Assembly: GCA_001897755.1 (NCBI GenBank)
Contig: MKUJ01000001.1
Coordinates: forward strand, 254,102-318,101
Length of the DNA: 64,000 nucleotides
Direction: 5' to 3'
Source of the DNA: Afipia sp. 64-13
GTDB taxonomy: Bacteria > Pseudomonadota > Alphaproteobacteria > Rhizobiales > Xanthobacteraceae
The position numbers and the translations under genes are program-made. Below, in pieces: positions 58,354-64,000 of this stretch. A model generated the notes under the pieces. That model had not been told where the DNA came from and ran no database searches. It was given only the letters and a program-made list of their open reading frames with translations. Position 1 is the first letter of the stretch. The number at the start of each line of letters is the position of its first letter.

Positions 58354-58520
58354 GGGATCGTCTCCTGCGCCCGCCCCGGTACCAGAGAGCTTGGCTGCGT
58401 GACCGTATGGCGGCGGAAAATAGGAATTTTTTGCGAGTTGGGACCAAATTAAGGCAATCGGAGTGCGCGCGGCAGGACCTGGCCGCGCGGCTCACGATCG
58501 CGTGATTGCCATTCCGGCCG

Positions 58521-58546
58521 GTAACGCCCTAGGAACGGGGGCGTAT
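58521..58546 (+). promoter_or_regulatory. Candidate autoregulatory ECF promoter of the NrsF-linked sigma factor
   Basis: GTAAC-N16-CGTAT about 22 bp before a GTG that opens VRGSDNEWTDLMRQ; resembles the SigF/NrsF-type GTAAC -35 element. Confidence 0.45.
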
Positions 58547-58567
58547 TTTGAATCGACGGGAGCGCTT

Positions 58568-59119
58568 GTGCGCGGGTCAGACAACGAATGGACCGACCTG
58601 ATGCGGCAGGCCAATGCGGGTAATGATGCCGCCTACCATCGGCTGTTGAAGGCGGTGACCCCGGTTCTGAGAGCGGCCGCGCGCCGTGGTCTGACGCAAG
58701 CCGGACGGCCCGCCGACCAGTCCGAGGATATCGTGCAGGACATTTTGCTGGCCGTGCATCTGAAACGTCATACCTGGGACGAGAATGCGCCCTTCGCGCC
58801 GTGGCTGTTCGCGATTGCTCGCAACAAGCTGATCGATACGCTGCGCCGAGGTGGCCGGCGTGTTTTCGTCAATATCGATGATTTCTCGGACATCCTTCCG
58901 GGCGAGCAGCCGCAGGAGACGGTGTCCGGGACCGACGTTGCGGTGCATTTGAACGCCCTGCCGGCTCGCCAGCGCGAGGTGCTGCAATCGATTTCGGTCG
59001 ATGGCCTGTCGATCCGGGACACCGCGACGCGGCTCGCGATGACGGAAGGCGCGGTGCGCGTCGCACTGCACCGGGGTCTTGCCAGCCTGTCGTCCCGCAT
59101 GCAGGAAAAACAGCCATGA
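58568..59119 (+). CDS. ECF sigma factor (SigF/EcfF-like, NrsF-associated)
   Basis: ORF open from 58463; likely start VRGSDNEWTDLMRQANAGNDAAYHRLLKAVTPVLRAAARRGL. Region 2/4 motifs (SEDIVQDILLAVHLKRHTWD; LPARQREVLQSISVDGLSIRDTATRLAMTEGAVRVALHRGLASL). Confidence 0.88.
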   Translation: MRGSDNEWTDLMRQANAGNDAAYHRLLKAVTPVLRAAARRGLTQAGRPADQSEDIVQDILLAVHLKRHTWDENAPFAPWLFAIARNKLIDTLRRGGRRVFVNIDDFSDILPGEQPQETVSGTDVAVHLNALPARQREVLQSISVDGLSIRDTATRLAMTEGAVRVALHRGLASLSSRMQEKQP

Positions 59120-59754
59120 GAACCGATGATCTGATTGCCGGTCTGGCAGCCGATAACGGTTGGCGTGCGAGACCTGTCTGGCTCTGGCTGCTGGCGGCGA
59201 TGATCGCGGCCCTGCCATTGTCAGGCTCGCTGTTCATGATGAGCCTGGGCGTGCGGCCGGATATCGGCACCGCCATGCACAGCCCGTTTTTCGATTTCAA
59301 ATTTGTCATCACCATCGCGCTTGCCAGCGCGGCGGCGGCGCTCAGCCTGCATTTGTCGCGACCGGAAGCATCGCTGCGCGGCTGGATCTGGCTGCTTGCC
59401 GTTCCGGCCGGGCTGCTCGGCATCGGCATCGCCGCCGACTTCGCCGTGCATCAGCGCTCGGGCTGGATCTCGCGTCTGACCGGGACCAACTCGATGGTTT
59501 GCATGACCTCGATCCCGCTTTTGTCGCTGCCGCTCCTTGCGGCGGCCTTGCTGACGCTGCGGCGCGGAGCGACGACGCGCCCGGCGATCACGGGAGCCTT
59601 TGCGGGATTGATGTCGGGCGGCGTCGCCGCAACTCTGTATGCAATGCATTGCGGCGACGACTCGCCGCTGTTCGTGGCGACTTGGTACACGCTTGGCTTT
59701 GCGATGATCGCGGCGATCGGCGCACTCGCCGGCCGGCGTCTGCTGAGGTTCTGA
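59116..59754 (+). CDS. NrsF (DUF1109)-type membrane anti-sigma factor
   Basis: Six-TM pattern; two Cys in the expected NrsF contexts (SMVCMTSIPLLSLP, YAMHCGDDSPLFVATWYT); overlaps the sigma stop. Confidence 0.85.
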   Translation: MRTDDLIAGLAADNGWRARPVWLWLLAAMIAALPLSGSLFMMSLGVRPDIGTAMHSPFFDFKFVITIALASAAAALSLHLSRPEASLRGWIWLLAVPAGLLGIGIAADFAVHQRSGWISRLTGTNSMVCMTSIPLLSLPLLAAALLTLRRGATTRPAITGAFAGLMSGGVAATLYAMHCGDDSPLFVATWYTLGFAMIAAIGALAGRRLLRF

Positions 59755-59766
59755 CCGGTTTTATCT

Positions 59767-60876
59767 TCAGGCGGGCACGGACTCTGCCGTGGACTGCCGC
59801 ATGCGATAGAACCGCAGGACCTGCTGCGCCGTCGAGACCTTCAGCATGTCATAGTTGCTGTGGTAGTCCTCGATGTTGATCGCATCGTCGACCTGAACTA
59901 CGTCACGGCGCATCGCGAGGATCTTCTCCAGCGTCTCCCACGACAGTCCGGTGACCTTGGCCAGCACCAGCACGCCTTCGGAGTTGGACTCGATCATCAT
60001 GTTCTCGACGGTCGAGACCGAGATGTTGGCAAGCAGGGCAATGGCCGCGTTGGTTTCCTCGAAGCGGCCGGCTTCAGCGAATTCGCCAATCTGCTCTTCA
60101 TTCAGGCGGCCGTCGTTCTTGAGCAACTGCACCAGACTCTGGATACGGATCGATTCCTCGCTACGTGCCGCGCAGGCAGCTTGCGCCGCCTGCTGAACCG
60201 CAGATGACACGTTTGCGGCGTTTGCCGAATTGCTGGCTTCCAGCCGCGCGCGTACGGTCGCGGAGGCTCTGGCGATCAGCTTCAGATAATGATGGCGTGG
60301 AATGGTGGGGCGCAACGCCAGACAAACCGCAAGATTGTCGTTTTGTCCCGCCTTCGTGACCAGCATCCGGAAACCGTTTTCAGAAAACCGGGCGCCCGGA
60401 TTGTTGACCGCGCTTTCGACAACCTCCTGATTGCCGCGTTCGACCAGGACGTCGGTGACCGCGTCGCTCAAGGTCTTGCGTTTTGAAATCGCCAGCAGGT
60501 GGTGCTGGCTCTTGGTGCGCGCGTTTTCGATCAGGGTCTTGTCGTCGAGACGCTCCGATTGCGACAGGACCGGCGCCGCGACGTCAATGGCGTCGTCAAA
60601 AGCCAGCGTCCGCATGAGTTGCGGCGGCGCCTTGGCGATCGGGGCAAGACGGTTGGCCAGCATGGCCTTGGCGGAGGTTTCGATTTGTTCGATCAGGCAC
60701 TGGAATACATCGTCGAATACGGCGATCTGATCGTCGGAATAGTCGAGCGGCGCATTCACGAACAGATCGGTCACGCGGCGAAGGCGATCGACTCGCTTGG
60801 CGACATTGCCGCTCGCCATGGCTTCCTGGAGTTCGAAAAGAAGACCTTTCGACACAGCGGCGTGATTTGAATTCAT
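59767..60876 (-). CDS. DUF2336 domain-containing protein
   Basis: VAKRVDRLRRVTDLFVNAPLDYSDDQIAVFDDVFQCLIEQIE...; typical all-helical DUF2336 pattern. Confidence 0.85.
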   Translation of the reverse strand: MNSNHAAVSKGLLFELQEAMASGNVAKRVDRLRRVTDLFVNAPLDYSDDQIAVFDDVFQCLIEQIETSAKAMLANRLAPIAKAPPQLMRTLAFDDAIDVAAPVLSQSERLDDKTLIENARTKSQHHLLAISKRKTLSDAVTDVLVERGNQEVVESAVNNPGARFSENGFRMLVTKAGQNDNLAVCLALRPTIPRHHYLKLIARASATVRARLEASNSANAANVSSAVQQAAQAACAARSEESIRIQSLVQLLKNDGRLNEEQIGEFAEAGRFEETNAAIALLANISVSTVENMMIESNSEGVLVLAKVTGLSWETLEKILAMRRDVVQVDDAINIEDYHSNYDMLKVSTAQQVLRFYRMRQSTAESVPA

Positions 60877-60938
60877 GACTTCTGTCCAATTACTTCAGTC
60901 AAATGCCGACGCGAGCTTCCTGCTGCGGGATACGAAAT

Positions 60939-62078
60939 CTATCCGCGTTCGATACGGTTACGTCCCGAATGCTTTGCCTGGTAGAGAGCGATGTCGGCGC
61001 GTGCAAGAATGCTGTCCCCTGTTTCATTGGGGCGGAGCGTAACCACGCCTGCCGAAAGCGTGACGGCCATTCCTTGCGAGATGGTGCTCCAGTCGAGATC
61101 GGCAACGATCTTGCGGAGCCGGTCGAGCGTGCGAACCGCTTCGATATCGGACGTCTCGGGCAGAATCAGCAGGAATTCCTCGCCGCCGTAACGCCCAAAC
61201 TTGTCGATTCCGCGGATGTTGGCGAACATCGTGATCGCGAACGTGCGAAGCACTTCGTCGCCGGCCGGATGGCCGAACTGATCGTTGATCTTCTTGAACC
61301 AGTCGAGGTCGATCAGGGCGACCGAGCAAAGCGCTCCGGTGCGAGCCGAGCGCATGATCTCGTCATCGAGCGCTTTCATGATGCTGCGCCGGTTGTGCGA
61401 TCCGGTCAGTTCATCGAGTTCGGCCAGTTCCTCGATCCGCTGATAGGCTTCCTTGAGCTGCAGGCCCTGATTGTAGAACGATTCCCGCAGCGCGCTGCTG
61501 AACATGCCGACGAACATGCAGCGGCCGATCGTGATGACGAACGCCGCTAGCGTGGCGAAGCGCTCGATCGGGCTGCCATGCGGCATTGCGATGGGCTTGT
61601 CGGTCGCCAGAAAGAGCACGGACAGCCCGGCCGTCATGATGGTCCATGAGATCGCCGTCTGCCACGGCGTCGCGCGGAGCGAGCCGAATGCGAAGATCAC
61701 GAACAGCGAACACAGAAAGACGATCGCGACTTCCGGCGCGATGTAGATGAACGTGAGCATCAGGAGCAGGCTGACGCTGATTTGCGGAAGGAGGAGGTGG
61801 TGGTCCTTGAACCGATCGTTGATGTGCGTATCGGACAGGATCGCGAAGGCGGCGAGGGTCAGGAGGCTGCAGGAGAGAAAGGCAAGGCCGGTGGCGAGGG
61901 ACGTGGTCCCGGCGAAGGCGAAGATCAGGAGGATAAGGGTGTCGGCGGTATAACTTAGCCCCATCATCACCAGCAGGCGCCGCCTTTGGCTGGCTCTGCG
62001 CGCGAGTCTCGCGGACGTGGAATCGCCCCCAGCCGTGAGGTCGCCGATGGTGGCCAGTGATGAAACGAGGCTCCGCAC
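60939..62078 (-). CDS. Membrane-anchored GGDEF diguanylate cyclase
   Basis: Six predicted TMs then DELTGSHNRRSIMKALDDEI...DLDWFKKINDQFGHPAGDEVL...RGIDKFGRYGGEEFLLILPE (GGEEF with RxxD I-site). Confidence 0.92.
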   Translation of the reverse strand: MRSLVSSLATIGDLTAGGDSTSARLARRASQRRRLLVMMGLSYTADTLILLIFAFAGTTSLATGLAFLSCSLLTLAAFAILSDTHINDRFKDHHLLLPQISVSLLLMLTFIYIAPEVAIVFLCSLFVIFAFGSLRATPWQTAISWTIMTAGLSVLFLATDKPIAMPHGSPIERFATLAAFVITIGRCMFVGMFSSALRESFYNQGLQLKEAYQRIEELAELDELTGSHNRRSIMKALDDEIMRSARTGALCSVALIDLDWFKKINDQFGHPAGDEVLRTFAITMFANIRGIDKFGRYGGEEFLLILPETSDIEAVRTLDRLRKIVADLDWSTISQGMAVTLSAGVVTLRPNETGDSILARADIALYQAKHSGRNRIERG

Positions 62079-62385: not shown

Positions 62386-63024
62386 ATGTCGGATTTTGAC
62401 ATCGGCGGCCTGAACCTGTTCACGACTTCGTGCGACCAACCTTGCGAGACGGCATTGAGTGCATCACAGGCGACCACCGATGAATCCCTGATCGCCCGCA
62501 TTGCTCAAGGTGACCGCCTCGCGATGCAGGTCCTCTATGGCCGGCATCATGTGCGGGTGTTTCGTTTCGCGTTGCGTCTGGTGCGCAATGAGCAGGTCGC
62601 GGAGGATCTTATCAGCGAGGTCTTTCTCGATGTCTGGCGTCAGGCGGGCAAGTTCGAGGGCCGCTCCGCGGTCTCGACCTGGCTGCTGGCGATCACCCGG
62701 TTCAAGGCGTTGTCGGCGCTGCGCAAGCGCAAGGATGCGGAACTGGACGACGAGGCCGCGGCGGCGATCGAGGATACGTCCGACGATCCGGAAGTCGCGG
62801 TGACGAAGAAGGATACGGGTGCAGCGTTGCGAAATTGCCTGACCGCACTTTCGCCGGACCATCGGGAGATCATCGATCTCGTCTACTATCACGAGAAGTC
62901 GGTGGAGGAGGTCGCCGAGATCGTCGGCATCCCGGAGAACACGGTGAAGACGCGGTTGTTCTATGCGCGGAAGAAACTGGCCGAGCTGCTGAAGGCAGCC
63001 GGCGTCGAGCGAGGTTGGCCATGA
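62386..63024 (+). CDS. ECF RNA polymerase sigma factor
   Basis: DESLIARIAQGDRLAMQVLYGRHHVRVFRFALRLVRNEQVAEDLISEVFLDVWRQAGKFEGRSAVSTWLLAITRFKALSALRKRK; start taken at MSDFDIGG. Confidence 0.93.
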   Translation: MSDFDIGGLNLFTTSCDQPCETALSASQATTDESLIARIAQGDRLAMQVLYGRHHVRVFRFALRLVRNEQVAEDLISEVFLDVWRQAGKFEGRSAVSTWLLAITRFKALSALRKRKDAELDDEAAAAIEDTSDDPEVAVTKKDTGAALRNCLTALSPDHREIIDLVYYHEKSVEEVAEIVGIPENTVKTRLFYARKKLAELLKAAGVERGWP

Positions 63025-63713
63025 CGGGCGCGGGCAAGACCGACGGAAATAACGACTTCGCGGCACAAGAGCCGGGCGAGCTCGAGGCGCTGTTGCCCTG
63101 GCACGCGGCCGGAACGCTCGATCCGCAGGAGAGCCGGCGGGTGGAGGAAGCTCTGGCGCGGGATCCGGCGCTCGCCCGGCAATACGCGGCGGTCCGGGAA
63201 GAGTGCGCGGAAACCGTGCTGCTGAACGAAAGTCTTGGCGCGCCTTCGACCCGCGCGCTGGAAAAGCTGTTCGAGGCGATCGATGCGGAGCCCGCCCGGG
63301 CCGCAGCTCCGGCGGAACCGGGTCTGCTGGGCCGGCTCGGCCAGTTCTTTGCGGCCATGGCGCCACGGACGCTGGCCGCGGCAGCGATCGTGGGAGCATT
63401 TGCGCTGGTGCTGCAGGCGGGCGTGATCGGCACCGTGCTGCTTAAGGGTGGCTCCGGCAGCTTTGAGACGGCATCCTATCAGACCGAGGCGGCGACCGGC
63501 CCGCGGGTGCTGGTCAGCTTCGTGCCGGACGCGCGCATCGCGGACATCAATGGCTTCCTCGGCCGCTATCAGGCCTCGATCGTCTCCGGACCCCAGGCCG
63601 GCATATTCCGCATCCAGCTTGGCGGCAAGGCTCTCTCGAAAGAGGAGACGGCCAAGGTGATCGAGCGGATCCGGGGCGAGAAGATCATAGGGTTTGCCGA
63701 GGCGACCAACTGA
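63021..63713 (+). CDS. Anti-sigma factor with TM segment and propeptide-like C-terminal domain
   Basis: LLPWHAAGTLDPQESRRVEEALARDPALARQYAAVREE (ZAS-like), TM AAAAIVGAFALVLQAGVIGTVLL, C-terminal VLVSFVPDARIADINGFLGRYQASIVSGPQAGIFRIQLGGK; ATGA overlap with the sigma gene. Confidence 0.82.
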   Translation: MTGAGKTDGNNDFAAQEPGELEALLPWHAAGTLDPQESRRVEEALARDPALARQYAAVREECAETVLLNESLGAPSTRALEKLFEAIDAEPARAAAPAEPGLLGRLGQFFAAMAPRTLAAAAIVGAFALVLQAGVIGTVLLKGGSGSFETASYQTEAATGPRVLVSFVPDARIADINGFLGRYQASIVSGPQAGIFRIQLGGKALSKEETAKVIERIRGEKIIGFAEATN

Positions 63714-63763
63714 TCGTTTGTCTGCTCCCTTGTCGATAACATCGTTTGCCCGCGAGGTGCGTC

Positions 63764-64000
63764 ATGGCCGGACAACGCAAGCATCATGAAGGCGCGCAGC
63801 CCGGCAAGGCAGCACGGCGGTGGTCATGGATTTTCGTGGCAGCCGCGTCCGTTTTGGTGGCGGCCATGCCGCAAGCCTCGGCGCAATTTGCGAATGTCGG
63901 GCGCGGCCCCAGCGTCAATATGAATACGGGGCCGCGGATTTCGATTCACCCGCACGTCCGTTATTCGCCGAACATCAATTATGATGATTTTGGACGTGGC
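63764..64000 (+). CDS. Exported protein, 3' truncated by the window edge (possible S8 peptidase of the sigma/anti-sigma operon)
   Basis: MAGQRKHHEGAQPGKAARRWSWIFVAAASVLVAAMPQASAQFANVGRGPSVNMNTGPRISIHPHVRYSPNINYDDFGRG; signal peptide and low-complexity start; no catalytic residues visible in the window. Confidence 0.6.
   Translation, partial: MAGQRKHHEGAQPGKAARRWSWIFVAAASVLVAAMPQASAQFANVGRGPSVNMNTGPRISIHPHVRYSPNINYDDFGRG

Follow-up and report, generated by a model that had tools for sequence, protein, structure and literature searches.

An ECF sigma factor operon of Afipia whose membrane anti-sigma factor may mimic the precursor of the subtilase encoded beside it

Results

The sigma and anti-sigma genes

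The window analysed here is a stretch of 64,000 nucleotides from Afipia sp. 64-13 (G000:C1:254102-318101), and the three genes of the original prediction are all present at its downstream end (Table 1). The product of the first gene matches Pfam Sigma70_r2 (E = 4e-17, residues 50-116) and Sigma70_r4_2 (E = 9e-15, residues 147-198) as well as NCBIfam PRK12515 (E = 3e-105, above its cut-off), and with regions 2 and 4 only, and no region 3 domain, it falls among the ECF sigma factors. Its start had been placed at ATG 62386, which lies upstream of a promoter block (62411-62437) conserved among relatives; this position, and the length of the homologous proteins, argue that translation probably begins instead at TTG 62455, which gives a protein of 189 aa like those of the relatives. 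The second gene overlaps the sigma stop codon (ATGA), and its product joins an N-terminal helical anti-sigma domain (ASD) to one transmembrane (TM) helix, which is the make-up of a class I membrane anti-sigma factor. With the Pfam and NCBIfam matches, the overlap and the helix, the description of the first two genes as an ECF sigma/anti-sigma pair stands.

The anti-sigma factor matches the NCBIfam antisigma model (6e-9) below its cut-off, and zf-HC2 likewise falls below its cut-off on this protein, weak zf-HC2 matches being found in 36 of 39 homologues. The zinc ligands of ZAS domains (HxxxCxxC) are absent from the window anti-sigma factor and its near relatives, and are seen in some distant homologues (for example L227 and L241). 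The periplasmic end carries the sequence VLVSFVPDARIADINGFLGRYQASIVSGPQAGIFRIQL, which was quoted when a likeness to subtilase propeptides and I9-type domains was first proposed.

Other regulatory genes lie further upstream. Window positions 58463-59754 contain another ECF sigma gene and, behind it, the gene of a protein with several TM segments that looks by eye like the NrsF/DUF1109 anti-sigmas, and such a pair is found in L260 too, upstream of its own sigma/anti-sigma/S8 module. On the minus strand, at 59767-62078 and upstream of the sigma operon, two proteins are encoded, one DUF2336-like and the other like a GGDEF diguanylate cyclase; genes similar to these lie beside the module in the relatives L247, L249 and L256, which are without S8.

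Table 1. Features of the sigma operon, in window coordinates
Feature	Position	Strand	Basis
ECF promoter (putative, autoregulatory), TGAACC-N16-CGACC, 17 nt upstream of the likely sigma start codon	62411..62437	+	Conservation
ECF sigma factor of the PRK12515 subfamily, 189 aa from the likely TTG start	62455..63024	+	Pfam, NCBIfam; relatives, promoter position
Anti-sigma factor, 230 aa: cytoplasmic ASD, TM helix, linker, prodomain-like module	63021..63713	+	ORF, profiles, AlphaFold
Cytoplasmic anti-sigma domain, helical, residues about 20-90, no zinc ligands	63078..63290	+	AlphaFold helices 18-89; alignments
Transmembrane helix, residues 116-141	63366..63443	+	Hydrophobic stretch; model helix 115-141
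FETAS motif next to the membrane, residues 148-152, proposed as the site of site-1 cleavage	63462..63476	+	Position, cognate resemblance, tracking of S8
Subtilase-prodomain-like module, residues 160-230, beta-alpha-beta-beta-alpha-beta	63498..63710	+	hhalign, AlphaFold, Foldseek
S8 subtilase gene, 5' part: signal-peptide-like start, low-complexity N/P/R-rich linker	63764..64000	+	ORF; rest read beyond the window

The third gene and its continuation beyond the window

The third gene had been described as beginning like that of an exported protein, with a low-complexity Asn/Pro-rich start, and as being cut by the window. It does have a signal-peptide-like start, from an ATG at 63764, and an N/P/R-rich stretch; it is cut at 64000 and continues beyond the window to L002 3503. 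A run of eight Ns follows directly after the window, inside the gene (G000:C1:318102-318109; L002 2304-2311), and the reading frame is not joined across it. As a 90%-identical relative (L062) has a single uninterrupted S8 ORF, with additional G/P/R-rich residues at the spot of the N run, the frame break is taken to be an assembly gap. A broken S8 gene was considered and ruled out, as the break coincides with the eight Ns and the gene of L062 is intact.

When read past 64000 the protein matches Pfam Peptidase_S8 (PF00082, E = 2e-43), and a match to a Fervidolysin_NPro-like prodomain (9e-4) lies just below its cut-off. Asp131, His161, Asn251 and Ser314 are invariant across all 34 aligned S8 relatives and provide the Asp/His/Ser triad and oxyanion Asn by which MEROPS defines family S8, and the best sequence matches in the PDB are subtilisins. 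Little sequence lies C-terminal of the catalytic domain, either here or in most of the relatives. The third gene is, as supposed at the outset, that of an exported S8 subtilase, and its Asp/His/Asn/Ser set is intact.

A conserved promoter in front of the sigma gene

The pattern GAACC-N15-17-CG[AT]C was found in 94 of 113 regions upstream of the sigma gene in relatives, where shuffled sequences would give 1.15. The promoter block is the sole match in the window at one mismatch or fewer, and as 1.3 matches are expected there by chance the evidence for it is conservation and not rarity. This conservation suggests autoregulation, and hence positive feedback. In a regulon search of the host genome a loose pattern matched 18 times, and 14 times in the reversed control; the stricter YGAACC-N16-CGACCAA gave 50 matches in seven relatives against none in the reversed controls. 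The stricter motif recurs before genes of the SPFH/stomatin type (at loci including L309, L313 and L331), and stands once before the gene of an exported C14 caspase (L314). Small secreted proteins of L328, L329 and L311 also stand behind it, and they contain NLNVNTG..IPIRPHVNLN, which is similar to the linker at the N-terminus of the S8 protein (VNMNTGPRISIHPHVRYSPNIN).

A prodomain-like module at the end of the anti-sigma factor

Comparison of the anti-sigma C-terminus with the prodomain of the partner S8 protein by hhalign gave a probability of 85% (E 6e-6, 63 columns), in an alignment that is colinear from the first strand to the last. With more diverse members the probability was 91% and the score 36.1, as against 17.1 or less in 200 column shuffles and 12.9 with a reversed profile, while the controls (the N-terminal part of the anti-sigma factor and the S8 catalytic domain) gave 0.2-0.3%. 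In the full-length AlphaFold model the module is a four-stranded antiparallel sheet with two helices (pLDDT about 87-95), and it is predicted to fold like a subtilase prodomain, in the order beta-alpha-beta-beta-alpha-beta. Foldseek against the PDB placed prodomains among the best matches (the subtilisin prosegments 1spb_P and 1scj_B and the PC1/3 prodomain 9fid_D; mutual TM 0.60-0.64, rmsd 2.3-2.9), although not uniquely, for ACT, BLUF and NapD domains score similarly; with so many ferredoxin-like domains scoring alike, Foldseek by itself does not discriminate.

Searches of the PDB sequences with the anti-sigma factor by phmmer and hmmsearch gave no matches, and the window protein has no match that passes the Pfam gathering score for prodomain families; the relation between module and prodomain is visible only by profile-profile and fold comparison. 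One anti-sigma homologue weakly matches PF22148 (0.0048), the prodomain family that is matched by 27 of the 34 S8 proteins. The likeness can be recognised by eye in a different class of the phylum, the anti-sigma factors there ending in LLAEPI, ILLAEPIS and VTLAEPLG and the partner prodomains in LVQPLQ, SWAEPME and AWAQPLG. By these comparisons the periplasmic module is related to the prodomain of the partner S8 protease, so that the propeptide- or I9-like character first proposed for it is upheld by the hhalign probabilities and by the modelled topology of residues 160-230. The window anti-sigma factor stops beside a conserved prodomain Asn (AQRNS), without a tail that would reach the protease active site, and some distant homologues have 3-10 residues more at this end.

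Linkage of the three genes across the phylum

The order sigma/anti-sigma/S8 occurs in 34 of 39 loci of relatives. In a class-wide sample S8 is adjacent to 14 of 15 distant anti-sigma genes that have the module and to none of five that lack it. A further class sample gave 13 more loci with S8 and no S8 at three loci without the module; at L276, L277 and L281, where the module is present, no S8 gene was seen in the sequenced flank examined. Phylum-wide, S8 is adjacent in 16 of 20 loci, and at the other four (L231, L233, L245 and L246) its place downstream is taken by a C14 gene of the caspase family. The products of these C14 genes are exported and caspase-like (Pfam 1e-8 to 2e-39), and in two of the four Cys residues flank the periplasmic domain, where a disulfide is possible. 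The GTDB contig collection holds 345 encoding loci, and the best 80 of the 345 come nearly all from Bradyrhizobium, Afipia and relatives. The predicted three-gene operon, made up of a stress sigma factor, its membrane inhibitor and an exported subtilisin-like protease, is widespread in bacteria. S8 is the usual and not the sole partner, as the module outlives the loss of S8 (see below) and some homologous modules are found with a caspase.

A juxtamembrane motif resembling the likely processing site of the partner

Between the TM helix and the module the anti-sigma factors bear a motif, aromatic-x-T-A/L-S/G, which in the window is FETAS and lies in a region (residues 147-154) of low confidence in the AlphaFold model. 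The motif resembles the segment that comes directly after the prodomain of the cognate S8 protein, likely its self-processing site. Pairs of anti-sigma and S8 motifs include YQTLT/FDTLT, YGTLS/YGVLT and YRTAS/YRTSS; the partner segment in the window is FRLQQ, and FETAS/FRLQQ is not a strong match. In 34 representatives the likeness was greater than that of linker shuffles (p = 0.0005) and than that of permuted partners (p = 0.014), phylogeny being only partly corrected for in these and the following values; the partner permutation was driven by the second class (p = 0.008) and was not significant outside it (p = 0.2). Because the idea of the motif had arisen from these same representatives it was retested on 11 loci fetched later, where the S8 segments of L270 and L280 were placed by hand, and this independent set, with pairs such as YQPAG/FRPAG and FTVAS/FTAAA, gave p < 3e-4 against linker shuffles and p = 0.004 on partner permutation. 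The likeness to the post-prodomain segment appears to be cognate-specific.

Loss of the protease in the host family

About 30 of the 131 host-family genomes with the anti-sigma factor have no strong S8 match. That S8 is obligatory was therefore rejected, many lineages keeping sigma and anti-sigma factor without it. In the host family the strict motif is found at 69 of 84 loci with an adjacent S8 gene and at 4 of 34 without (Fisher p = 8e-13, uncorrected for relatedness), and the genus means are 0.79 with S8 (27 genera) and 0.21 without (12 genera). The same contrast is seen within genera, the counts with and without S8 being 7/7 and 0/3 in g26, 3/3 and 0/4 in g524, 1/1 and 0/9 in g28, and 1/1 and 0/1 in g6. 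In g3, g20 and g528 some loci without an adjacent S8 gene retain the motif, and in g9 and g12 most S8-bearing loci are without its strict form. Members that lack S8 often have V, L or S in place of the aromatic residue while the following ETASY is kept, and the linkers at many such loci are long and Pro/Ala-rich. The module is under purifying selection both without S8 (dN/dS 0.19-0.45) and with it (0.17-0.32), and must for this reason have some role independent of S8. As the motif tends to be lost with S8 and the module is conserved, the linker motif appears to depend on S8 and the module not solely to do so. All that L260 (G845) has of S8 is several broken pieces, which adjoin an anti-sigma gene with an intact motif (YRTAS) and are possibly the trace of a recent loss of the protease.

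Discussion

The gene content and order, the catalytic residues, the relation to the prodomain, the resemblance of the motif and its co-loss with S8, and the conservation of the promoter were computed directly. The reading we prefer, to which we give about an even chance, is that the anti-sigma factor is a bipartite mimic of the precursor of the adjacent protease, the subtilase docking on it and cutting its linker as site 1. In the scheme that we infer, which comprises docking, linker cutting, the direction of the signal and positive feedback, the exported protease would shed its own prodomain and the mature enzyme would dock through its prodomain-binding face onto the C-terminal module of the anti-sigma factor, whereupon the linker motif would enter the active site and be cut. 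A site-2 protease of the M50/RseP type would complete the breakdown, and the released sigma factor would transcribe its own operon from the GAACC-N16-CGACC promoter, so that more protease would be made and the switch would amplify itself. A candidate for the site-2 step is present in the genome (Peptidase_M50, E = 4e-69, at G000:C17). In the ferredoxin-like prodomain fold the first and last strands are adjacent and antiparallel, so that the start of the module would lie close to where the tail of a prodomain passes into the cleft. A wider claim is more tentative, and we would put it a little short of even: that through a two-part zymogen mimic of this kind the subtilase serves its own sigma circuit as product and as dedicated site-1 protease, in two or more classes of Pseudomonadota and alongside a parallel version that uses caspase-like peptidases.

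The original prediction held that the anti-sigma factor could be a direct substrate or inhibitor of the protease it controls, and that the switch would be self-contained. Neither of the two findings that were to refute the prediction came about: the third gene encodes an S8 protease, and the module, as modelled and as aligned, behaves like a subtilase prodomain. The first of these ideas gains independent support from the linker motif, which is like the segment of the cognate protease and is apt to vanish where that protease has been lost. The second does not hold as worded: a site-2 protease would still be needed, many lineages are without S8, and in these the module is under purifying selection.

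The strongest competing explanation, somewhat unlikely in our estimate, is that the anti-sigma factor is a tethered inhibitor and level sensor, module and linker binding the mature protease as a pseudo-propeptide and keeping it inactive at the membrane. Binding might then stabilise or protect the anti-sigma factor and so give negative feedback on protease production, or misfolded substrates might release the protease, with the anti-sigma factor lost through other proteases. The docking homology and the linker mimicry would also fit an inhibitor, RsiV of Bacillus is a precedent for sensing and inhibiting an enzyme by occupation of its active site (PMC5014341), and retention of sigma and anti-sigma factor after loss of S8 is easier to understand if S8 is a ligand and not a required activator. 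The position of the motif, in the stretch of low model confidence, is however better suited to a substrate than to an inhibitor. In free propeptides it is the C-terminal tail that plugs the protease active site; the window anti-sigma factor, which ends beside the Asn of AQRNS, has no such tail, and this favours docking over inhibition.

We think it improbable that the module is a generic ferredoxin-like sensor of some other envelope signal, with S8 a mere co-transcribed target gene and the linker motif either cut by housekeeping proteases or serving membrane-proximal folding. Ferredoxin-like folds are common, as the similar Foldseek scores of ACT, BLUF and NapD domains illustrate, and the module persists without S8 and has homologues paired with C14 caspases, but shuffles fall far short of the profile score that it reaches with the partner prodomain, distant anti-sigma factors without it have no S8 neighbour, and the linker motif is both like the segment of the partner protease and found mostly where that protease is present. 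Still less probable is that the likeness and loss of the linker reflect the shared ancestry of a few clades and a general relaxation of linkers rather than recognition by the protease, since, for all that the tests are incompletely corrected for phylogeny and the linkers of many S8-less loci are long and Pro/Ala-rich, the contrast is repeated within genera (g26, g28, g524 and g6), V, L or S often replaces the aromatic residue beside an unaltered ETASY, and the cognate match was reproduced in the independent set of loci.

The mimicry that we favour may be compared with known systems. In Bacillus subtilis the anti-sigma factor RsiV is both receptor for and inhibitor of lysozyme in the sigma-V system (PMC5014341), and as in our proposal the outer domain of a membrane anti-sigma factor engages the active site of one particular hydrolase, the enzyme being the signal and regulated intramembrane proteolysis following; there, however, a foreign enzyme is bound and signal peptidase makes the site-1 cut, whereas here the protease comes from the same operon and the outer domain resembles its prodomain. 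The RseA/DegS/RseP pathway of regulated intramembrane proteolysis in the sigma-E response (reviewed in PMC8103513) shares with the Afipia operon an ECF sigma factor, a single-pass anti-sigma factor, a serine protease at site 1 (proposed here) and an M50 protease at site 2, but DegS is a membrane-anchored HtrA/PDZ protease answering to a C-terminal signal, in place of which we propose an exported, prodomain-bearing subtilase and recognition by zymogen mimicry. With subtilase prodomains and I9 inhibitors (PF22148, PF05922) the anti-sigma module has in common its fold, its topology and its profile similarity to the partner prodomain; it differs in being fused through a TM helix, in stopping before the active-site tail, and in having the processing-site-like segment in front of the domain rather than behind it. 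The ECF/anti-sigma/C14 modules of L231, L233, L245 and L246 share with the Afipia operon the type of anti-sigma factor, whose periplasmic domain is related to the one here, and the presence of a peptidase-family gene behind it, and differ in the class of the peptidase (C14). We know of no relation between C14 peptidases and the subtilase prodomain.

Regulated proteolysis of anti-sigma factors is already known, and what is new here is the processing-site-like linker motif, FETAS, in an anti-sigma factor. In the open-access literature searched we found no description of a prodomain-like receptor combined with a copy of the processing site and a dedicated, operon-encoded subtilase. For most ECF sigma/anti-sigma pairs the site-1 proteases and their triggers are, to our knowledge, not known. 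In Afipia, Bradyrhizobium and others the sequence alone points to a protease, a docking module and a scissile segment within one operon and, if the proposal is true, a protease's own prodomain architecture would have been reused as a signal receptor.
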